12,300 bases of DNA from Tannerella sp. (GTDB taxonomy: Bacteria; Bacteroidota; Bacteroidia; Bacteroidales; Tannerellaceae): NCBI GenBank assembly GCA_031268395.1, contig JAIRXI010000243.1, positions 1 to 12,300 on the forward strand. Direction: 5' to 3'. Of the stretch, positions 1,059 to 12,134 are shown in pieces. Under the pieces are notes generated by a model, which had not been told where the DNA came from, did not search any database, and saw only the letters and a list, made by a program, of their open reading frames with translations. How positions within the stretch are numbered: position 1 is the first letter of the stretch; every line of letters starts with the position of its first letter. Position numbers and translations under genes: made by a program.

Positions 1059-2893
1059 GACCGACACCCTCCTTTCCGTGCCAGCGTCCAGTCCATGGCG
1101 CCGGTATACTGTTGCCAGAGGCGGCTGTAGCGTCCGCCGGCATGAATCAGATCGTCATGCCGGCCTTCTTCCGACAGCCGGCCCCTGTCAATCACGGCAA
1201 TTTTGTCTGCCGCGCGCACCGTGGAAAGGCGGTGCGCGATAATAATTACGGTTTTATTTTTCATCAGTTCTTCACAAGCCTGCTGGATTTTCTGTTCGTT
1301 TTCCGGATCGGCAAAGGCCGTCGCCTCGTCCAGCACAAGGACGGGCGCGTTCTTGAGCATCGCCCGCGCGATGACGATGCGTTGCCGTTCGCCGCCGGAA
1401 AGATGTATGTTTTTCGTGCCGACAACCGTGTCGTAACCGTCCGGCAGTTGCAGGACAAAATCGTGGCACTGCGCCGCCTTTGCCGCGGCAATGGCTTCTT
1501 CGCGACTTGCGTTTCGGTTGCCGACCAGGATATTGTCCACAATGCTTTGCCTGAACAGAAACACCTCCTGGAACACGAACCCGACAATGCTCATCAGGTA
1601 GTCGCTGCTCATCTCCCGGATGTCCACGCCGCCGATTTTAACCGCGCCGCCCGTTACGTCGTAAAAGCGCGGGATCAGGTGTGCCAGCGTAGACTTCCCG
1701 CTGCCGGACGGTCCGACCAGGGCCGTAAATTCACCCTGCTTTGCCGTAAAGGTGACGTCCGAAACGGCAACGGCTTCCCCCTCGCCATTATAGGTAAAGG
1801 TGACGTTTTCAAAAGAAACGGAATATTCGCCGGTTGTCCGGGGCCGGGCTGCTTCCGCAAGCGGCGGGGTATCCAGCACCCGGTCCATGCGTTCGATACC
1901 GTCCGCCACCTGCATACCCGTCTGCGACACGTAGACAAGCTTGGTAAACGGCGTGGACAGCGAGACGGAAAAGACAAGGTAGAAAACCGCCGCCATCGCA
2001 AATGCGGGATAATCCGTCACGCTTCCCGACAGAAGGATAATGACGGGAAGCAGGAACAGGTAAACATGATTGATGATCAGCAGGAACAGTGTCATGTGTG
2101 TGCGGAAGGCCATCGTGTAATCGAAGACATATTTCCCGTAATTGCGGATAATCTCGTGGAATTTGCGGAAGGAAAAAATCGTCTGGTTGAACGCTTTCAG
2201 CACGGATATGCCGCGCACATATTCCACCGCCGCACTGTTCATTTCCTCCAGCGAATCCTGATATTTTTTGATGAAGCGCTGAGCCATGTGGCTGCCGAAA
2301 CCCGCCACCTGAATCAGGTAACTGATGATAATCGGCACAAAGCTTGCCAGTCCCATCCGCCAGTCGAACCAGAACAGGATCGCCAGCGTAACTGCCGGCA
2401 TGGCAAAAGATCCGGCAAGATCAGGGAGCTGGTGCGCGATGAACTGCTCCAGTTTTTCAATGTTTTCGTCCACGATTTTGCGCAGCTTGCCGGTCGCATT
2501 TTTGCTGTGAAAACCCAGCGGCAGCGAGGCGATATGCCGGGTAAAATCCAGTTTGAGACGGTAAAGCGTGGTAAACGCCGCCACATGCGAACACATCAGG
2601 GCGACGAAATTCAGCAGGATGGCCGCCACCGCCCCGCCGCAGGCCAGCCAGCCAAGCCGGGTTACGTGCGCATAGTCAAGCGTACTCAAATCCGCAAAAT
2701 GAAACACCAGTTCGCGGATAATGCCGTAAATGGCGATAAACGGCGTGAACGACACGATCACGCTCAGTACCGACAGCACGCACGAAGCGATGACCGGCGC
2801 TCTTTCCGTCATCGCCAGTTCCCACAGCCGTGCCATGCCCCGCTTGCGCGGACGGCCTTCTTTCGGTTCGGAAGAATGTCCGTTTTTGCTCAT
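1055..2893 (-). CDS. ABC transporter ATP-binding/permease protein (half-transporter, 612 aa)
   Basis: Complete exporter-fold ABC half-transporter. Numbering from the chosen Met, the membrane domain spans roughly residues 28-325, with an intracellular-loop motif at NATGKLRKIVDENIEKLEQF (132-151). The ATPase domain is intact: Walker A GPSGSGKS (394-401), Q-loop FQE with Q442, signature LSGGE (498-502), Walker B VLVLDE (518-523) and H-loop His554 in AHRLSTV. The motif DEATAFADPENE after Walker B is one I associate with IrtAB/YbtPQ-like transporters; this is weak evidence for a siderophore- or peptide-type substrate. The frame stays open 13 codons further upstream (ATG at 2932). The ATG at 2893 is preferred because a perfect -7 box lies inside that extension and TAAGGAT directly precedes 2893. 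The stop overlaps the start of the next ABC gene by 4 nt. It is first in a leftward operon. Confidence 0.93.
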   Translation of the reverse strand: MSKNGHSSEPKEGRPRKRGMARLWELAMTERAPVIASCVLSVLSVIVSFTPFIAIYGIIRELVFHFADLSTLDYAHVTRLGWLACGGAVAAILLNFVALMCSHVAAFTTLYRLKLDFTRHIASLPLGFHSKNATGKLRKIVDENIEKLEQFIAHQLPDLAGSFAMPAVTLAILFWFDWRMGLASFVPIIISYLIQVAGFGSHMAQRFIKKYQDSLEEMNSAAVEYVRGISVLKAFNQTIFSFRKFHEIIRNYGKYVFDYTMAFRTHMTLFLLIINHVYLFLLPVIILLSGSVTDYPAFAMAAVFYLVFSVSLSTPFTKLVYVSQTGMQVADGIERMDRVLDTPPLAEAARPRTTGEYSVSFENVTFTYNGEGEAVAVSDVTFTAKQGEFTALVGPSGSGKSTLAHLIPRFYDVTGGAVKIGGVDIREMSSDYLMSIVGFVFQEVFLFRQSIVDNILVGNRNASREEAIAAAKAAQCHDFVLQLPDGYDTVVGTKNIHLSGGERQRIVIARAMLKNAPVLVLDEATAFADPENEQKIQQACEELMKNKTVIIIAHRLSTVRAADKIAVIDRGRLSEEGRHDDLIHAGGRYSRLWQQYTGAMDWTLARKGGCRS

Positions 2894-2914
2894 ATCCTTA
2901 TGTTTTTTGGAACG

Positions 2915-2945
2915 CAAAAGTACGTGCGGCATCCGCTCCGTGCAA
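2915..2945 (-). promoter_or_regulatory. Bacteroides-type promoter for the ABC operon
   Basis: On the minus strand TACTTTTG (2922-2915) matches the TAnnTTTG -7 consensus exactly. A TTG at 2945-2943 lies 20 nt upstream, which is the expected -33 spacing. Transcription would start near 2908, leaving a leader of about 15 nt (containing TAAGGAT) before the ATG at 2893. The promoter therefore decides the ABC start codon. Confidence 0.75.
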
Positions 2946-3082
2946 TCCCTATTGTTAAGTATTTGAAGGGATAACGATACCTAATTCAATGACTGAATCT
3001 CTCCAAAGCGGTATTTCCGGAAGTTTTGTTTTGAATGTTTAACGCAAGATAACTTCTTATGGGGCAAAAAAATTGTCAGAAA

Positions 3083-3114
3083 TTTGTACGGACAAAAAAA
3101 AGTTGTTAGATTTG
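3083..3114 (+). promoter_or_regulatory. Bacteroides-type promoter for the surface-protein operon
   Basis: TTTG at 3083-3086, a 20-nt spacer containing an A8 run, and TAGATTTG at 3107-3114 give exact matches to both the -33 and -7 boxes. The expected start site is near 3121, 32 nt before the ATG at 3153 and about 596 nt before the ATG of the first giant surface protein at 3717. I see no equally good promoter between 3121 and 3717. It diverges from the ABC promoter, with about 140 bp of AT-rich DNA between them. Confidence 0.75.
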
Positions 3115-3152
3115 CGCCGGAAAAATAATACTCATTTTCGAGTCAGAACGGA

Positions 3153-3695
3153 ATGAATTTAAATAGCGCAATCCTACCCTTGCAGAAAAACAGCTATCGT
3201 TGCCGGACATTCGCAGCTTTTGCAGAGACTGTTCGTACACGACTGATTTTCAGCATAATAGCGGGGGGGGGGGGGGGTATTTCTGTAATATACAATGAGT
3301 TAAGCTCATTCTACAGTAAATATTCCTTTCCCGCTTACCTCTATTGTACGCCATCCGGTTTTGCGCACAAAGCATACCATTCAAAAAAACTCCATAAAAA
3401 ATTATCGCTTTCATCATACGTGCAAGCCCGCGAAATTATCGGGGAAGCATTGACCTTTGCGCCGCGTTGCAGCGTCCGCAAAAACGCATCCGTCACGCAC
3501 ATAAAAACGGCGCGCGCCGCCACCGGCAAGGATTTTCACGAACGGATCAGGCGACCGGAAGCCCTTGCGAGGGTAAACGGCATGAACAGTTGCGAAGCGC
3601 TGTTTTGCAAACTCAACGTCGTGCTCGAACGCCACAGCAATCTGATTGCGCGCAGGAAAAGCGAACCGCGCGCCGCCTCAAACAGTAAAATTTGA
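3153..3695 (+). CDS. Leader open reading frame of unknown function, gated by a G15 tract
   Basis: This 180-codon frame begins 32 nt after the predicted transcription start and ends 21 nt before the next ATG. I recognise no domain. The first part is AT-rich and low in complexity. From about 3420 codon third positions become GC-rich, as in the neighbouring genes (VQAREIIGEALTFAPRCSVR onward), so at least that part may be or have been coding. A run of 15 G at 3263-3277 encodes the Ala-Gly5 stretch. One G fewer leads to TAA four codons later and one G more leads to TGA seven codons later, so only tract lengths of 3n keep the frame open. It lies in the same frame as the downstream gene, separated by one TGA and seven sense codons. 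It could be a real phase-variable small protein, a regulatory leader peptide, a gene remnant, or chance. Antisense frames over 3341-3907 also exist and are no more convincing. Confidence 0.3.
   Translation: MNLNSAILPLQKNSYRCRTFAAFAETVRTRLIFSIIAGGGGGISVIYNELSSFYSKYSFPAYLYCTPSGFAHKAYHSKKLHKKLSLSSYVQAREIIGEALTFAPRCSVRKNASVTHIKTARAATGKDFHERIRRPEALARVNGMNSCEALFCKLNVVLERHSNLIARRKSEPRAASNSKI
3263..3277. repeat. Homopolymeric G tract (15 G)
   Basis: Fifteen consecutive G residues lie in an otherwise AT-rich leader, between the promoter at 3083-3114 and the surface-protein gene at 3717. Long poly-G runs are classic slipped-strand mispairing sites for phase variation of surface proteins. The exact length in any one cell may vary, and homopolymer length in an assembly is itself error-prone. 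Confidence 0.9.
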
Positions 3696-3716
3696 ATTCT
3701 ATTAAATAATAAACAA

Positions 3717-6700
3717 ATGTATGTAAGTATGGGAAAAAAATTTACCCCCAAGAGTAGCCGCAGCAATCGACCGGCGGCAAAAATCAAGATGGCCGGACGC
3801 AGTCTGTTTGCGTACGCTGCCATTGTGTTAATCATGGCATTTGCCGCGCTGCACATGCAGGCGGCAGATACCAATTCGGGCAATGCAAAGCAGGCGACAG
3901 GAAACACAGTCTGGTTTGGAAGCTATCCGCAGGCCTATTACGGATGGCCGCCTCAGAATACGGCGCCAACCGAGCCTTACGTGTTGAAATTGAATCACAG
4001 GGTACGTGACGGACAAAATCCGCCGCAAATGCGCCCCTGCTTTTTTCTGGTGCAACCCGTCAAGTGGAACGTGCTGACCGTCGATGCGCAGGGCATACTC
4101 CTTGTGGCGAGCGAAAACATCGACACTCATCCGTATAATAATGGTGGAGGAAGCACAAGCTGGAGCGCTTCGACATTGCGGACATTTCTGGCCGACTCGT
4201 TCATGCATGGAAGTACCGCGCTCCCGTCGCCGACGGATTATTTTTCGAGCGTCGAACGCAATGCGGTCGTGGTTTCTTCGCTGCTAAATCCGACTACTGG
4301 CCCCGATGTGGACGGCATATCCACAAACGACAGCGTATTTCTTCTCTCGGCCGAAGACGCCCAGACACTTTTTGCCAGCGACAATGCACGGAAAGGCTAC
4401 AACACGGATTATGCCGCATCGTACGAGAATACCTTCGATCCGCATACGGCGCCGGACGACTGGCTGACCCGTTCGCACATCAAGGGAGGACTTTTCCCGG
4501 GGCCGAGGTTTGTAACAGCAAGCGGACTGGTAAATCAGGAAGACGGACTGAACGATCGTCCTTACCAGGTCCGTCCCGCCCTGCGTCTGTCGCGGGACGC
4601 CGTGGTCATGCTCTCGGATGCGGCAGGCAAACCGGCCTATTCGGACGGCTCGCTGAAAACTACCGATATTCCCTCCGGATCTTCGCTGAAACTGACGCTG
4701 GCGGACGCTTCGCTGGCATTGACGTCGTCGAGCAATAAATATCCGATCGTGGTGCCGTCCGGAACCGTCACACTGAACTATGCCGGCGTGAGTACCGGCC
4801 CGGGACGATACGTCTCCTGCACGCTCGAAGAACAGGGCGGCAACATGCTCTACTATGCCAAACTGGCTGATGCCTCATCGGCAGCCTCCGGTACCGTGAG
4901 CATCGCCATACCCGCGGCCGTACTGGAAGGCAGCTACGTGCTGAAACTCTTCTGCGAAGCGCCGAATGCCAACCCGCAGACGCCGGATCTGGCCAGCCAG
5001 CCGGTCGTGTTCAACCTGGGCGTCAGCAACGATGCCGTCGCGCCTGCCATTACGACCGCCACGCTGTCGGACGGCATCACGGGACTGGCTTTCGACATCG
5101 CACTGACCGCCACCGGAACGCCGGCGCCCGTTTGGGAACTGTCGTCCGGGACGATTCCTCCGGGACTGACGCTCGAACCTGCCGGACAGCTCCACGGAAC
5201 GCCCACCGCGGCGGGCAGCTATTCCTTTACCCTGGCGGCCATCAACGGCGTCAGCAGCGACACGCGTCCGTATACCGTACAGATACAGGCTTCCTCGCCG
5301 CCCGTTATTACCTCGCCGGCCGCCGGCGCACTGGCTTCACAGGTGAGAGGCGTCGCATACACGCCGGTTACGGTTGTGGCCACAGGCTTTCCCGCGCCCA
5401 CGTTCGACATTATCGACGGCAGTCTGCCGCTGGGAATCACGCTGAACACGGCCACCGGAGAAATCAGCGGAACGCCTACGAAAGAGGTGAATGCCACTTT
5501 CACGGTCGAAGCAAGCAACTTCGCCGGAGTAAGCTCGCAAGCGTACAGTATTAATATTGTACCCACGGGAACGCCGGCAGCTCCGGCGTTTATCACGCCG
5601 CTGACAACGCCGCTGACGCCGCTTCCGACGGCATACGCCGACAAACTTTACTCGTTCCAGTTTGAGGTGACGGGAGTCCCTGCACCGGATTTTAGCTCGA
5701 TACCGATGCCGGCCGGGCTGACCCTCAGTAACACGGGACTGCTGAGCGGAACGCCCTTCCTCGCCGTGGCAGGACAGACCTATACGCTTCCGATTAAAAT
5801 AGAAAATACGGTCACAAGCGTGACGGAAATCTTCTCGCTGGAGATTGCCTTTCTGCTGAATCCGCCGACCCTGGCAACGCTGCCGGTCATTACGACCACC
5901 GACAGTAATCCGTTCCATGTCACGGCGACCTTTGAACGCCCCGTATCCGGACTGATCGACACGGATATTTCCGTCGTCGGAGGCTCGCCGTCCAATGTGG
6001 CAATGGATAATCCCGCAGGCTCGCCCGTCCGCGCAAGCATCTGGTCGTTCGACGTCACGCCCGATCCGACCAATTCGGACGGCACGCTGATCAAGGCATG
6101 GATCCTTCCGAACGCCGCGCTGGACGAACATGGCGCGCAGACCGTCAGCGAATCCGACACGGTCGTCGTAACCTATCGCGCCGACCGGCCTGTCGGGTCG
6201 TTCAGTTTTGCCGAAGGACAGGTATTTCTCTCCGACCCGAACGGCTTCTCGTTCACCGTCAATTCCTACGGACTGACCTCCGCCCTCTTTGTCGGCGCAG
6301 CCGCCCTGGACAGCGACAATGTCGACGGAGCAATCGAAATCACCCGCGACGGTGCGACGGTCGAAGGATGGGATGCCACCGTGAGTGGAAATACGGTGAC
6401 GGTGAACGGCGTTTTCGGCATGGGAGCCTATACGGTCACCCTCAAAGGAAACACGATTCGCAACGACCTCGGCCATTACCTGGGCCAGACGGTCGGGCAT
6501 TTCCTTGTGCAGACATCGACAAACTGGTACGAAGACTGCACGCAGACGGTTGAACTGAACTTCGCGGCTTCCGGCAGCAGCCGTCAGCTGACGGTCGAAT
6601 ATCGCGATCTGGCGGCAAGCGCTGTCGTGGCAGCGGACGGCAGTTCTGCCCCGACCTCCCTGACGGTGGCCGCAGGCAATACGGAAGCTGCCATTGAACT

Positions 6701-7556
6701 GAAATCGCTCTACATCCCGGCCCTGCAGGAAGGCGAAACGGGCGAAATCGTTATCCGGCTCGGCGGCGCGCCGCTGGCCACGCTTTCGGGACTGCACTTC
6801 TATAACCGTCCGACCGAAGATGACATCGTCTACATCCCTCCCACAACGCTTTATTCCGGATACTTTGCCCAGCTGCGCAGCGGCTCGCCGTATCTGCTGC
6901 GCAGCATTAACGGAGGAAGTACGTGGCAAAACGCATGGACGCCGCTCACGCTGACCGAACTGTCGAACATAGCGCAGGATGTACGCTTCCGCGAACCCGA
7001 CGGGTGCTATGAGACGGTCATTCCGGTATCCTCCAGCGCGAATGTCAACTACAGCATACGGCGCACAGTCATGCTGCCCGCCGTTCAGGGGATCGTCACC
7101 CTGCCGGCCGGAGGAGGCGCCTATTCTACGTTCAGCGGCGAAGACTTTGTCTTCCGCCTGACGCCGGGCGAACAGTATGCGGGGATGATTCCCGACATAT
7201 CGACCGGCCGCCTCAACGTGCCCGATTCGATAGGCGTCGTTGTGACGCCCAATGGCGACGGCTCGTTTGAAGTGCGTGTGCGCGTGGTGCGCGAACCCGT
7301 GAATATCGGGATACGGATGATAGTCGATACCAGCATCGCGAATGCCGGCGTGGAAGCCCGGCGCGTCTGGACTGCCGGCGGGCAGCTGTATGTCTCCGCC
7401 GCCCATTCGGGTGAAGCGCGCGTGTACACCACGACCGGCGCACTGGTGCGCAGTCTCTCCGTCGAAGCCGGGCAGACAAGCCGCACGCCCCTCGCGCCCG
7501 GATTTTATATCGTGGCCTTCGACGACGGAAGTAAATTTAAAGTAAGCGGATTTTAA
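3717..7556 (+). CDS. Giant secreted multi-Ig surface protein with DUF6273-like head and T9SS-type C-terminal domain (1279 aa)
   Basis: Probable exported, cell-surface-anchored adhesin-like protein. Residues 1-49 form a long signal peptide with a basic stretch and a hydrophobic core near 29-47 (LFAYAAIVLIMAFAALHMQA). Met5 and Met23 are alternative starts, and Met23 would give a conventional ~29-residue signal. Residues 63-292 resemble DUF6273: VWFGSYPQ (65-72), PVKWNVL (114-120), a TLRTFL segment, VFLLSAEDA and QVRPALRL (284-291). Three putative Ig (He_PIG-like) domains follow at about 442-525, 528-616 and 622-711, each with a PxGxTL...GxxxGTP pattern. Two further Ig-like domains lie at about 714-820 (FERPVSGLIDTDISVVGG) and 823-933. 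Residues 934-1210 form a module shared with the next gene, with Cys941 and Cys1097. Residues 1215-1279 are a T9SS type A-like sorting domain (RVWTAGGQLYVSAAHSGEAR, then VYTTTGALV and GFYIV). The end, KFKVSGF, lacks the usual basic terminal residues. No catalytic residues were recognised. It probably forms an operon with the next gene. Confidence 0.88.
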   Translation: MYVSMGKKFTPKSSRSNRPAAKIKMAGRSLFAYAAIVLIMAFAALHMQAADTNSGNAKQATGNTVWFGSYPQAYYGWPPQNTAPTEPYVLKLNHRVRDGQNPPQMRPCFFLVQPVKWNVLTVDAQGILLVASENIDTHPYNNGGGSTSWSASTLRTFLADSFMHGSTALPSPTDYFSSVERNAVVVSSLLNPTTGPDVDGISTNDSVFLLSAEDAQTLFASDNARKGYNTDYAASYENTFDPHTAPDDWLTRSHIKGGLFPGPRFVTASGLVNQEDGLNDRPYQVRPALRLSRDAVVMLSDAAGKPAYSDGSLKTTDIPSGSSLKLTLADASLALTSSSNKYPIVVPSGTVTLNYAGVSTGPGRYVSCTLEEQGGNMLYYAKLADASSAASGTVSIAIPAAVLEGSYVLKLFCEAPNANPQTPDLASQPVVFNLGVSNDAVAPAITTATLSDGITGLAFDIALTATGTPAPVWELSSGTIPPGLTLEPAGQLHGTPTAAGSYSFTLAAINGVSSDTRPYTVQIQASSPPVITSPAAGALASQVRGVAYTPVTVVATGFPAPTFDIIDGSLPLGITLNTATGEISGTPTKEVNATFTVEASNFAGVSSQAYSINIVPTGTPAAPAFITPLTTPLTPLPTAYADKLYSFQFEVTGVPAPDFSSIPMPAGLTLSNTGLLSGTPFLAVAGQTYTLPIKIENTVTSVTEIFSLEIAFLLNPPTLATLPVITTTDSNPFHVTATFERPVSGLIDTDISVVGGSPSNVAMDNPAGSPVRASIWSFDVTPDPTNSDGTLIKAWILPNAALDEHGAQTVSESDTVVVTYRADRPVGSFSFAEGQVFLSDPNGFSFTVNSYGLTSALFVGAAALDSDNVDGAIEITRDGATVEGWDATVSGNTVTVNGVFGMGAYTVTLKGNTIRNDLGHYLGQTVGHFLVQTSTNWYEDCTQTVELNFAASGSSRQLTVEYRDLAASAVVAADGSSAPTSLTVAAGNTEAAIELKSLYIPALQEGETGEIVIRLGGAPLATLSGLHFYNRPTEDDIVYIPPTTLYSGYFAQLRSGSPYLLRSINGGSTWQNAWTPLTLTELSNIAQDVRFREPDGCYETVIPVSSSANVNYSIRRTVMLPAVQGIVTLPAGGGAYSTFSGEDFVFRLTPGEQYAGMIPDISTGRLNVPDSIGVVVTPNGDGSFEVRVRVVREPVNIGIRMIVDTSIANAGVEARRVWTAGGQLYVSAAHSGEARVYTTTGALVRSLSVEAGQTSRTPLAPGFYIVAFDDGSKFKVSGF

Positions 7557-7596: not shown

Positions 7597-10500
7597 ATGC
7601 AAATAATGAAATCAATAAAATATACAGATATGAAAACAGTTTTTTGTTTGACCGGCAGGAGCCGGCATAAAATGCGAACCGTCCTGTTCATGCTGGCCGT
7701 TGTGCTGGCAGGCGCGATGCCCGCAAAGGTGAAAGGGGCAGTCATTACAGTTGATATTACGACCTCCAGCACAAATCCATACGTGATTTTGGGTACCAGT
7801 ACCGACGACTATATTTTTGTAGGAGGTGGCACACAAACGGTCAACCGGATTAATGTGCAAAACGGATACGAGGGTACGATTACACTGGATAATGTGAATA
7901 TTGTTTGCCCTATAAATTATGCACCCATGCGGCTTTTCGGAACTTTCAATGGAGACAACAACAATCCGACTACCAAAGTCAGACTGATTCTCAAGGGAAA
8001 TAATTATTTAAATTCGGGAAATGGAGTAAACAGTGTAGCTGCAGGGCTGCAGGTAGACCAGGGCGCTCAGGTGGATATTAGCGCCATTGATCCCGACAAT
8101 AATGCCAGTGGATATCTGAAGGCAGATACGCGCAATACGGATATGGGTATTGCCGGCGCAGCCGGAATTGGAGGATCCTGTGTGCAGAATACTGTTGGAG
8201 ATGCCACTTCTACCGGCACATATCTTGGAACATGCCCCGAATATAACGGACTTTATATGAGAGCAGGAACCACTTCCACCGCGGGTGGTGGCAGACGTAC
8301 CACCGGCGGAAATATTGTCATTACCAGCGGAACCATTGTTGCGCAGGGAGGAAACTGTGGTGCCGGTATTGGCGGTGGTGGTTATTCAGGGCTTTACACC
8401 GGCAATATTGTGATTACAGGCGGCGATATTACAGCTACCGGAGGTGTGCACAGTCCCGGTATCGGCGGCGGTTGTGATAGTGGTTCAGGAAATATTGGAA
8501 GTTATGTACCTGGCACTTGCGTAATCGCTGTTCCTCCAGCAAAAATCGTCGCCAATACACCCAATGCCGGAAAAGGCTTGTCCGGCGCAAACTACATCGT
8601 GTATATCGGCGACCCGCAATCACCCCAGTTTACGGTCTATACCGAAGATTACAGGGCTACGACCATGTATTTGGACCTGAGCGGCGACCTCAATGTAAAA
8701 GCCAAACTCAATCAGTTCGCGCCGACCCGCGACCCTGAACGAATGTATCTGGGCGAAAGCAAGGTATATCCTGTGGACGGTCTCCTCCTCTGGAACACGG
8801 AATTTTCAGGAAAAAACATCGTACAAAACTACGGTACGTTTACCAATGCGATCACCTTCTTTACCGACGCCAAGAACGACAGGGGATTCGAATATGTGCC
8901 CGCGACGACGACGTATCCGGTTCCGTCCAATGTCAAAGTACAGTTGAACGCTCCGATATATGACCCGATCATGACGATGACGAAATACGTGCCTGCCGTT
9001 GGCGCCCCGGCGCCAATGGATACGGCCGACCTGCTGGTAGGGTATGACGGCACGGAAGCCGGTGCCAAAGCCGTGACGCTGACTTTCAAAAACGATGGAA
9101 ATACCAAACTGTACAATCCGGTGATTGAACTTGTCGCGCCCTATCATACGGACTTGGGCGGAGGTTCGCTGGATTTGGCCATCCAGACCGCGCTGGCAGC
9201 CGCGCTGACCACCGATGCGGGAGGCGCCTATCTGGCTCCGGGTGACCAGTTTCAGGTGCAGGCACTGCTGAATCTCGGTCTGGGTGTGGGCACCTATACG
9301 GGCGCCGTGCGGTTCAAGGCCGACAATGTGCCTACGGAAGCGCTTAAGCAGATCCCGTTCTCTGTCGACGTGGTGCGCATCATGCTGCCCCCGCCGACGC
9401 TGACTACCGTCCCGTCCGGGGTCAACGAAACCAATGCGCCGTTCAACGTGGAAGCGCTCTTCGTAAGGCCGGTAACAGGACTGGTGGATGCAGACATCCA
9501 GATCACCGGCGGAACGGTGTCGGGCACGGCCCCGGTCGGAATGCCCCCGACGGACTCGTGGACATTTACCGTGACGCCCAACGGGTCGCTTACAACCGGG
9601 CAGTATATCCAGTTTTATGCAAAGCAGGACGTTGCATACGACGACCACTCGATACGTACCGACGAAAAGTCCAACACGCTGAACGTAAAATACAATACGG
9701 ACAAGCCCTATGCAACGTTTGACTTCCCGTACGACTTCCCGGCAGACAGCGTTTTCATTACGGCTCAAAACAGCTTTACCTTTACGCTGAAGGCCAACGG
9801 CAGCGGAGCCGATGCCGACAGTCTTTGGATCGGAGCGAGTTATGTGAATATAACCAACATCGTGCCCGTGATTACAATCGAGCAAGACGGCGTGGCGTAC
9901 ACCGACTGGGATGTTACATCGTATAGCTGGGACGACGTTGCCGGCGTACACAGGGTCACCGTTACGGGCGCACCCGGCGACTTCCTGGAAGGTGCGTACA
10001 AAATCACGCTGGCAACCGGTCAGATCGAAAACAATAACGCCAACGCGATGGACGAACAGAAGGGCGGCTTCAACGTGCGGATTCCGGTCATCAATCCCGG
10101 CCCGAGCTATCCGGGAACGGGCATCGGCTACGGCATCGAACCCAATCCGGTATCGCTGCCCTATCCGGGCGGCGACGTGCTGCTGACGGTCTACGGCAAG
10201 CACCTGCAATATGCCGCAGCCGCGGGTATACTGGAGATTCAGCTGCCTCCGACGGTGGCAGGCGGTATCAGGGTCATTCCCCGCGCTGCGACGGACGGCC
10301 TGACGGCTACCCTCACGGTGCCGGTGCCGGGCAACAACACGGTTGTCCCCGAAGACCATCTTTTCGAACTGCTCCTGAACGGTGTAAGACCGAATCCGAA
10401 TTCCGAGGGCACGACGACCGTGGCCGCAGCTCCGGCGATTATCGTCGGTCCGGTAGACGGCAAATGGTTCGGCCTTTGCGAATATGAATTTACGGCTACG

Positions 10501-11508
10501 ATTCCCGACGACGGCACCAGCCGCGAAGTCAATCTCACCTATCTGGGCCTGGCGAAAGACTATCTCGTCATGCAGGGCGGCATCCGTCCGCCGGAAAAGG
10601 TGACGCTGCGCAGCGGCGAAACGGATCTGTCTCTGAAGTTCCAGTTGCTTCGGACGCCCGACAATCTGAACGGCGGGACGGGCGCCATTGTCGTTTCGTC
10701 GCCCGGACTGCCCAGCGACACGTCGGCCTGGTTCCAGATCTACAGTATCCCGAATGTGGACGACATGGTCTATTATCCGCCCACGACGATGTATTCCGGA
10801 CGGCTGGATCTCAATATCCGCGGCGGATCGCCCAACCTGGAACGCAGTTTCAACGACATCACGTGGGAAAACGCCTGGCTGCCGGTTACGCCCCTGCAGA
10901 TCGAAAATCTGGAAGGCATCATCTATTTCCGGGAGCCGGAGGGTTGTCCGGCCGACATGCATTTCTCCATAAACGGCTTTGGAAACGGTTCACACAGTAC
11001 GCCTCAGATTGTACGCGATGTGACCCTTCCGACCCTTTCGAACATCGCCACAGCGCCCGGGCCGGGCGTTCACCAGGTCGTCAGCGGCAAAGACTTCACC
11101 TTTACGGTGACGCTGGCAGGGCCCTACAGCGGCATGTTACCGAAAGTGACGGTCAACCGTCAGGCGCAGTCCGGAGACGAAGGCATTATCGTTACACCGC
11201 TGGGCGACGACGTCTTCAGCGTCACGATTCAGTCCGTGCGCGAATCAGTCACTGTCGGCATCAGCCCGATGGAAGAGATCCATCAGGGCATCGAATCGGC
11301 AGACGGTCCGCGCGTCTGGACTTCCGACGGACAGCTGCACATTTATGCCGTCCGCTCCGGCGAAGCGAACGTTTACACGCTCACGGGAGCGCTGGTAAAA
11401 AAGTTCCAGCTTGTCGGCGGCCGAACAAACAGTACGGCGCTCAACACGGGCTTTTACGTGGTACTGACCTTCAGCGATGGACAGCGGTATAAAGTAGTTA
11501 TCCGGTAG
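7597..11508 (+). CDS. Giant secreted surface protein with glycine-rich beta-helix-like head, Ig-like domains and T9SS-type C-terminal domain (1303 aa)
   Basis: Second adhesin-like protein of the pair. The secretion signal is MRTVLFMLAVVLAGAMPAKV (residues 26-45). The first ATG is at 7597, but 7606, 7630 (Met12) and 7672 (Met26) are also possible, and no Shine-Dalgarno decides between them. Residues 48-310 are a repeat region: successive strands such as GNIVITSGTIVAQGGN and GNIVITGGDITATGG, each ending in GIGGG, resemble beta-helix carbohydrate-binding-like regions. Residues 450-595 look like an Ig/CARDB-type domain. Two Ig-like domains follow at about 598-700 and 703-830, homologous to those at 714-933 of the upstream protein. 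A TIG-like domain lies at about 833-945. The shared module is at 955-1230 (Cys961 and Cys1117, DDMVYYPPTTMYSG, FREPEGC). A T9SS type A-like domain at 1239-1303 ends canonically in YKVVIR. The gap to the upstream gene is only 40 nt. The head is clearly AT-richer than the rest, suggesting module exchange. Confidence 0.88.
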   Translation: MQIMKSIKYTDMKTVFCLTGRSRHKMRTVLFMLAVVLAGAMPAKVKGAVITVDITTSSTNPYVILGTSTDDYIFVGGGTQTVNRINVQNGYEGTITLDNVNIVCPINYAPMRLFGTFNGDNNNPTTKVRLILKGNNYLNSGNGVNSVAAGLQVDQGAQVDISAIDPDNNASGYLKADTRNTDMGIAGAAGIGGSCVQNTVGDATSTGTYLGTCPEYNGLYMRAGTTSTAGGGRRTTGGNIVITSGTIVAQGGNCGAGIGGGGYSGLYTGNIVITGGDITATGGVHSPGIGGGCDSGSGNIGSYVPGTCVIAVPPAKIVANTPNAGKGLSGANYIVYIGDPQSPQFTVYTEDYRATTMYLDLSGDLNVKAKLNQFAPTRDPERMYLGESKVYPVDGLLLWNTEFSGKNIVQNYGTFTNAITFFTDAKNDRGFEYVPATTTYPVPSNVKVQLNAPIYDPIMTMTKYVPAVGAPAPMDTADLLVGYDGTEAGAKAVTLTFKNDGNTKLYNPVIELVAPYHTDLGGGSLDLAIQTALAAALTTDAGGAYLAPGDQFQVQALLNLGLGVGTYTGAVRFKADNVPTEALKQIPFSVDVVRIMLPPPTLTTVPSGVNETNAPFNVEALFVRPVTGLVDADIQITGGTVSGTAPVGMPPTDSWTFTVTPNGSLTTGQYIQFYAKQDVAYDDHSIRTDEKSNTLNVKYNTDKPYATFDFPYDFPADSVFITAQNSFTFTLKANGSGADADSLWIGASYVNITNIVPVITIEQDGVAYTDWDVTSYSWDDVAGVHRVTVTGAPGDFLEGAYKITLATGQIENNNANAMDEQKGGFNVRIPVINPGPSYPGTGIGYGIEPNPVSLPYPGGDVLLTVYGKHLQYAAAAGILEIQLPPTVAGGIRVIPRAATDGLTATLTVPVPGNNTVVPEDHLFELLLNGVRPNPNSEGTTTVAAAPAIIVGPVDGKWFGLCEYEFTATIPDDGTSREVNLTYLGLAKDYLVMQGGIRPPEKVTLRSGETDLSLKFQLLRTPDNLNGGTGAIVVSSPGLPSDTSAWFQIYSIPNVDDMVYYPPTTMYSGRLDLNIRGGSPNLERSFNDITWENAWLPVTPLQIENLEGIIYFREPEGCPADMHFSINGFGNGSHSTPQIVRDVTLPTLSNIATAPGPGVHQVVSGKDFTFTVTLAGPYSGMLPKVTVNRQAQSGDEGIIVTPLGDDVFSVTIQSVRESVTVGISPMEEIHQGIESADGPRVWTSDGQLHIYAVRSGEANVYTLTGALVKKFQLVGGRTNSTALNTGFYVVLTFSDGQRYKVVIR

Positions 11509-11591: not shown

Positions 11592-11715
11592 ATGTCCATT
11601 AGACCTTTCCCCGTCGTGTCCGGAAGAGAAGACGGGTTGACGGGCGGATATTCCGTTTGTTGCCGGCAGGCCGTCTTCTCTTCCGGATACGACAGGAGAA
11701 GCATCTAATGGACAT
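11592..11715. repeat. 124-bp interrupted inverted repeat
   Basis: The outer arms ATGTCCATTAGA (11592-11603) and TCTAATGGACAT (11704-11715) are perfectly complementary. The inner arms at 11613-11635 and 11671-11693 (23 bp; core GTCGTGTCCGGAAGAGAAG) pair along their whole length with a single G-T wobble. The 35-nt centre holds a small CGGA/TCCG stem (11645-11655). No coding frame spans it convincingly. It could be a MITE-like element, a decayed insertion-sequence end pair, or a large transcribed hairpin. Confidence 0.85.
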
Positions 11716-12013
11716 TTCGGGTTTATAACCGTCGGCAGCAATAGTTGGCTGCTCATCCCGAATTCTGCGAACCGCAGACAAGTGCATCGCGAGGGAAAAA
11801 GCGGTTTCACGAGGTAAAAACAGACCGGAAGCATCATTCCGCAGGCTGCGGAAACGTCAAATCTCAATCGTCCGGCTTACCGTTCACGGCAGGGGCGATT
11901 TCAAGAGACGGAAAACCGTCACCTTCAACATCGTCGGCACCCTGCCGGACCATTCCGACGAACACTAACATCCGCTATTGCTTCAGCCGTTGAAAATGGA
12001 AGGTTGAAACCCC
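11716..12013. other. Intergenic stretch without a recognisable gene
   Basis: No convincing complete gene is visible. A frame open from 11729 to a TAA at 11966-11968 has host-like GC-ending codons near its end (about 11876-11965, encoding DFKRRKTVTFNIVGTLPDHS) but no start codon. It may be the tail of a decayed gene. An 82-codon ATG-initiated frame at 11745-11993 has no coding character that I can see. Confidence 0.4.
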
Positions 12014-12051
12014 GTTCATCGTTCATCGTTCATCATTCATCGTTCATCGTT
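12014..12051. repeat. 7-bp tandem repeat (GTTCATC)n
   Basis: Five tandem GTTCATC units (12014-12048, the fourth with A for its first G) are followed by a partial GTT. The run lies in the spacer upstream of the aldo/keto reductase promoter. No spacers separate the units, so it is not CRISPR. Confidence 0.9.
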
Positions 12052-12060
12052 ATATAAAAG

Positions 12061-12083
12061 GTCGTGTCCGGAAGAGAAGGCGG
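12061..12083 (+). repeat. Third copy of the inverted-repeat arm
   Basis: These 23 bases match the arm at 11613-11635 with one difference (GAAGGCGG instead of GAAGACGG). With 12120-12124 and 12113-12117 it forms an imperfect hairpin: CGGAA pairs with TTCCG, and AGAAG pairs with CTTCT. It sits about 50 nt upstream of the next gene's promoter. Confidence 0.8.
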
Positions 12084-12134
12084 CCGTCCACAAAAACCGA
12101 CACGGGCGGCGGCTTCTTATTCCGCAACAATTTC

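Follow-up and report, generated by a model that had tools for sequence, protein, structure and literature searches.

A G15 tract within a leader ORF as a probable slipped-strand switch of a surface-protein operon in Tannerella sp.

What is the role of 15 consecutive G residues in the leader of an operon of two giant surface proteins? The tract lies in a 12,300-nt stretch of Tannerella sp. DNA (contig JAIRXI010000243.1), here called the window, which is one entire contig of a 3.13-Mb draft genome of 82% completeness from an uncultured bacterium. The preliminary description had recorded the 15 G at 3263-3277, an exact promoter (TTTG and TAGATTTG with a 20-nt gap) upstream of them, and a 180-codon frame from 3153 that stops 21 nt before ATG 3717, and all of these are present in the sequence (Table 1; gene calls are long ORFs). 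The window has eight G8 matches against a shuffle mean of 0.51, and none of 200 dinucleotide shuffles equalled this count. The pre-tract part of the leader frame (whole frame 3153-3695) is the sole ATG-started frame that reaches G15. Behind the tract, the three frames are 6, 3, and 139 codons long, the two short ones near the codon counts given earlier for one G fewer and one G extra; thus 15 G retains the long frame and a change of a single unit shuts it. Taken alone, the long post-tract frame is only mildly unusual, as 52 of 2000 shuffles gave at least 120 open codons, and the case for a switch rests on orthologs and other loci, not on the window frame by itself. The leader protein had no Pfam match, and no known RNA element was found at E<=1 in window positions 2800-3900 or at the gathering threshold in eight tract loci.

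Table 1. Features of the leader and the surface-protein operon in the window.
Feature	Position	Strand	Details
Bacteroidota-type promoter	3083..3114	+	TTTG 3083-3086, 20-nt spacer, TAGATTTG 3107-3114
Leader ORF, 5' part	3153..3262	+	ATG 3153, 36 full codons
Near-palindrome CTGATTTTCAG	3243..3253	+	9 nt 5' of the tract; recurs near further tracts in the genus
G15 tract, proposed slippage switch	3263..3277	+	G11, G8, and G9 at the equivalent site in three orthologs
Stops closing both alternative frames	3278..3298	+	TAA 3286-3288 (at 14 G), TGA 3296-3298 (at 16 G)
Leader ORF, 3' part	3278..3695	+	stop TGA 3693-3695, 21 nt 5' of ATG 3717
DUF6261 C-terminal remnant	3495..3692	+	about 65 codons, in frame with the leader ORF
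Giant surface protein 1	3717..7556	+	DUF6273 and He_PIG Ig-like domains
Giant surface protein 2	7597..11508	+	Big_12 and Beta_helix_3 matches, weak and under the Pfam cut-offs

The tract is probably a slipped-strand switch inside a translated leader that gates the surface operon. RNA synthesis would begin at the listed promoter and ribosomes would initiate at ATG 3153. With 15 G (or 12, or 18), they would traverse the tract as far as the leader stop beside the surface gene; with any other remainder, they would halt at most 21 nt past the tract and leave about 420 nt of the leader untranslated. In the ON state, ribosomes trailing the RNA polymerase would block a terminator or Rho and bring ribosomes to the surface gene, and in the OFF state transcription would end early or the surface gene would be translated poorly. 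The identity of the leader peptide would be of little importance. The parts, the frames, their conservation, and their recurrence are properties of the sequences themselves; from them we infer variation of tract length in cells and a control of expression by leader translation.

Orthologs of the operon were found in other species by DNA and protein searches, each species being represented by one assembled tract length. The genomes G029, G024, and G015 have a G-tract of 11, 8, and 9 G, respectively, at the equivalent place. The run begins 114-127 nt after the leader ATG in these genomes and 110 nt after it in the window, and the pre-tract part of their leaders is 38-42 codons long. The long post-tract frame has 165 codons in G029, 146 in G024, and 126 in G015, and the two alternative frames end within 6-8 codons in all three (3-6 in the window). 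With 15 and 11 G, the leader halves are joined in frame, and with 8 and 9 G, they are out of frame. The long frame of G015 ends 7 nt 5' of the surface gene (21 nt in the window), that of G029 ends 2 nt before the start of a DUF6261 gene, and that of G024 overlaps this start. A TAnnTTTG box is found 38-66 nt 5' of the leader ATG in the window and all three G-tract orthologs (4/4). In G004 (locus L326, contig C45), the G-run is replaced by (CA)24, which follows an ATG frame and ends 221 nt before the surface gene; of the post-repeat frames, one closes after 21 nt, and the other two run beyond a hairpin with seven T and stop 21-28 nt short of the gene. None of the scanned repeat types was present within 900 nt upstream of four distant homologs (46-48% identity), a scan that left out one distant homolog with 82 nt upstream and the relatives at 61-72% identity. 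In another distant homolog (L202, 43%), which has a C13 tract, a gap of 178 nt separates the end of the long frame from the gene.

G-runs of at least 12 were found in 29 of the 37 genomes of the genus (157 runs, summed from per-genome counts) and in three of 24 genomes of the order's other families, with one run each. Examined were 141 such runs, with some, e.g., in G020, G022, G032, and G034, left out; 28 were excluded because they were near a locus end, at least 30 nt long, or in G- or C-rich junk sequence, and another 16 lay inside long genes (14 of them SusC-like by eye, plus L191 and L229). The 97 runs kept, a few of them also coding (e.g., L159, L183, L196, and L264), gave 64 tract-gene pairs, and 27 of these have a gene of at least 800 aa with the tract 100-700 nt upstream. 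Among the 27 large-gene proteins, 17 match the TonB-receptor Plug domain and 17 match CarbopepD_reg_2. The longest post-tract frame ends from -80 to +20 nt of the gene start, a range picked after the tract-gene pair data had been viewed, in 17 of the 27 loci, and in the other 10 it does not end near the start. By the same measure, 500 shuffle rounds gave a mean of 3.8 and a maximum of 8 of 27, and when 27 leaders were drawn 300 times from 18 natural tractless ones, the mean was 4.5 and the maximum 10. Smaller genes (220-799 aa) show such an ending in 11 of 38 pairs, against a mean of 4.2 and a maximum of 8. A looser measure of open frames did not separate the tract loci (22/27) from tractless large genes (29/41), a set that contains genes inside operons. 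The architecture of the frame switch that had been proposed in the preliminary description is thus borne out by three G-tract orthologs, the (CA)24 ortholog, and many SusC-type loci, and its action on expression keeps the standing of a proposal.

An ATG frame starts 17-47 nt 3' of a TAnnTTTG box at 12 of the 27 large-gene loci, a count that has no control, and another 12 are without this box in the 400 nt before the tract. As assembled, 10 of the 25 loci with an ATG frame are in frame, which is not different from one third (p 0.53), the proportion that drifting lengths would give. In a tally over all tracts that ignored gene direction and involved no statistical test, the ORFs spanning them showed no evident strand bias. 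Five loci of G012 (L280, L281, L282, L283, and L284) have similar flanks with runs of 17, 16, 14, 19, and 12 G, respectively. In the genome of the window, a G15 on contig C357 (L157) ends 61 nt before an ORF resembling, by eye, an ECF sigma factor gene, and the G12 of L150 is immediately preceded by T10.

Between tract and gene, a sense-strand hairpin with a T-run is present in 17 of the 27 leaders and an antisense one in six, and 15 shuffles gave 3-8. Sixteen loci have a hairpin of -10 kcal/mol or better. The long frame passes the hairpin start in 15 of them and ends 1 nt short of it in L201; in all 16, at least one alternative frame closes 25 nt or more ahead of a hairpin, and at several loci the third frame also passes. 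Hairpins that reach -12 or better and lie no more than 300 nt from the gene were found in 12 of 27 tract leaders vs. 5 of 41 tractless large genes (Fisher p 0.004), and within 250 nt in 10 of 27 vs. 5 of 41. Good intrinsic terminators were identified in the orthologs G024 and G004. Two strict scans of the sense strand of the window from 3278 to 3716 gave no intrinsic terminator; a looser scan gave two candidates with about four T, the better one of -16.6 kcal/mol, and in G029 and G015 it also gave only candidates with about four T. Since the strict scans gave no terminator at the window, we infer the last step there, which may be Rho polarity, translational coupling, or the action of a weaker hairpin. 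Coupling may be unnecessary, since the surface gene possesses an A/T-rich start region of its own.

The leader peptide itself is poorly conserved, while the openness of one frame is clearly kept, a distinction that bears on the possibility that the leader ORF encodes its own phase-variable protein and the tract switches that protein, with no effect on the surface operon. In most ortholog pairs, changes are spread almost evenly over codon positions 1, 2, and 3, and nonsynonymous codon changes dominate, with a similar picture in three other leader groups. The mild third-position excess of some downstream pairs (22, 22, and 35 for the window genome, G000, vs. G029) leaves room for a weak constraint on the peptide and speaks for a protein of its own. 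Such a protein would also agree with a downstream part open for 126-165 codons in four species, with short similar stretches such as CTPSGF common to G000 and G029, and with a weakly similar upstream peptide beside two tracts of the window's own genome, on contigs C158 (L150, E 0.011) and C213 (L153, E 0.096), whose tract regions are alike. A search that needs shared 5-residue words, and is thus of limited sensitivity, nevertheless gave no homolog of the leader protein at E<=0.01 among 547 candidates, downstream leader peptides of other loci match one another only among related loci, and at many loci the frame ends near the start of the next gene. A phase-variable leader protein is on this evidence unlikely, and a leader that serves through its translation is preferred.

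The tract could also be taken as an inert mutational relic, with a length that drifts and has no effect on expression; the genus has many G-tracts (157). From a relic, one would not expect a frame that stays open to the gene start while the others soon close, as in four orthologs and many other loci, nor (CA)24 at the place of the tract in G004, and a relic is considered quite improbable.

Another reading, raised in part by the preliminary description, is that tract length sets the spacing of a second promoter or regulator site, e.g., of the palindrome CTGATTTTCAG and of TATTTCTG (3278-3285) as a -7 box. The octamer is not conserved and reads TATTTCGC, AAATTACT, and CAATTTAC in three orthologs, and what is kept is the TAnnTTTG box 5' of the leader ATG; the promoter-spacing model was rejected in this form. 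The palindrome speaks for a spacing effect. Copies with at most two mismatches, mostly 6-9 nt from the tracts, occur in 15 of 97 left flanks (on average 1.3 and at most 4 in shuffles), and the palindrome is the top EM motif of left flanks; its reverse complement is found in 12 of 97 right flanks, and EM recovers the motif on both sides, more weakly on the right. Left-flank copies occur with the gene on the G strand (L158 and L226) as well as on the C strand (L206, L216, and L217), which is odd for a promoter, and the pattern of one open frame would be left unexplained, so that a spacing effect is judged very unlikely. Copies resembling CTGATWTTCAG were noted in the left flanks of L150, L153, L154, L206, L216, L217, L222, and L226 and also of L227, L237, L242, L261, L269, and L278, and the distance to the G-run is 13-17 nt in L150, L222, and L269.

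That G15 is an error of sequencing or assembly is hardly credible: although for 47 of the 141 examined tracts the end of the locus is no more than 150 nt away and some runs at contig ends look like two-colour dark-cycle artefacts (36, 89, and 58 G in L221, L231, and L258, probably such artefacts), 3262 and 9023 bases separate the window tract from the contig ends, its flanks are conserved, and shorter tracts occupy the equivalent place in three other species.

The translated-leader switch remains the preferred reading, and its proposed target is the pair of surface-protein genes. By eye, orthologous starts align better with ATG 3729 than with ATG 3717, and ATG 3729 is the likelier start of surface protein 1; surface protein 2 is presumed to be in one operon with it. 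The DUF6261 remnant is 63% identical over 65 aa to a protein of G029 that matches PF19775 (DUF6261); by itself, it had no Pfam match. In G029 and G024, an intact DUF6261 gene lies between the leader and the surface gene, and the window has just its tail. Proteins 3' of the tracts in L153 and L223 look similar by eye. A long imperfect inverted repeat (11605-11701) is found 3' of the operon, and the unit CGTTCAT, repeated about 5.6 times, and one more inverted copy of a repeat arm also lie within 11605-12085; the coordinates reported for these repeats are 11605-11701, 12013-12051, and 12061-12085. For the neighbouring ABC transporter gene, MAGs of the isolates Gx481 and Gx485, which we take to be termite-gut samples, gave the best named relatives (82-84%).

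It is an evenly balanced proposition that this genus, probably of insect-gut Bacteroidales, has a stochastic regulon in which each genome contains many independent SusC/TonB and giant surface-protein operons, each gated by slippage. Every operon would have its own leader ORF with poly-G, poly-C, or in one case CA as a conduit for ribosomes through an attenuator, the leader peptides would be free to diverge, and the palindrome close to CTGATWTTCAG may tune slippage. DNA inversions are a known route of surface diversification in some Bacteroidales. If the proposition is true, slippage would be a second large-scale, cell-by-cell diversification of nutrient receptors and surface proteins in some of them. 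A slippage-gated attenuator would then stand at many operons, and a mechanism of two pilus loci would become a genus-wide design, with tract length modulo three predicting, for any genome or read set, the state in which each operon is. As it is mainly the openness of the frame that is kept, the leaders would also provide a clear example from nature of translation with a nearly irrelevant product.

A literature search whose coverage did not extend to most subscription journals gave no recognisable account of such a leader switch in Bacteroidota. Among classic arrangements, the window tract is not of the promoter-spacer type, as the promoter boxes have a regular 20-nt spacer and end at 3114, 148 nt 5' of G15, and it is not intragenic, as it ends 439 nt 5' of ATG 3717, outside the surface-protein ORF. 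Poly-G slippage that switches haemoglobin receptors is described for Neisseria HmbR/HpuAB, where the tract is within the receptor gene (PMC3786947); the window tract is in a separate leader ORF. The Neisseria arrangement rather resembles the 14 SusC-internal tracts of this genus. These runs (L156, L175, L182, L185, L193, L199, L200, L224, L225, L243, L246, L259, L268, and L276) are placed between TQEIS-like and LED..EVVVVGYGT segments, with two of the 14 in frame as assembled, and they look like classic intragenic phase variation. In the E. coli MG1655 rph frameshift, a 1-bp change shifts the stop of the upstream ORF relative to an attenuator and lowers pyrE expression (PMC2784333); the mutation there is a fixed one of laboratory origin and affects a real enzyme gene, whereas a reversible repeat in a leader is proposed here.

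The closest known system is that of the Streptococcus gallolyticus pil1/pil3 leader, with GCAGA pentamers, a 38-aa leader, and two loci in a Gram-positive bacterium, and for pil1 with a leader translation that was shown to relieve termination at an experimentally supported terminator (PMC3894217). In both systems, a repeat lies in a leader ORF 3' of a promoter, and changes of repeat units shift the frame and move the stop, in the pil1 case relative to a terminator hairpin that precedes a surface operon (PMC3894217). The window accordingly has a simple-sequence repeat within an ATG-initiated leader ORF 3' of a promoter, and in the window and its orthologs a unit change moves the leader stop from a site close to the structural gene to a distant one or back. 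Unlike pil1, the units here are a single G or C (once CA) and the leaders are mostly longer and often end near the gene start; there are many loci in one genus, with 17 of the 27 large genes TonB-receptor-like, and they are known from sequence alone. An intrinsic terminator, a defining part of pil1, was not obtained for the window by strict scans, and the window locus is for this reason not classed as a member. By analogy, it may nevertheless work like pil1, and the loci of the genus with terminators come closer still to that system.
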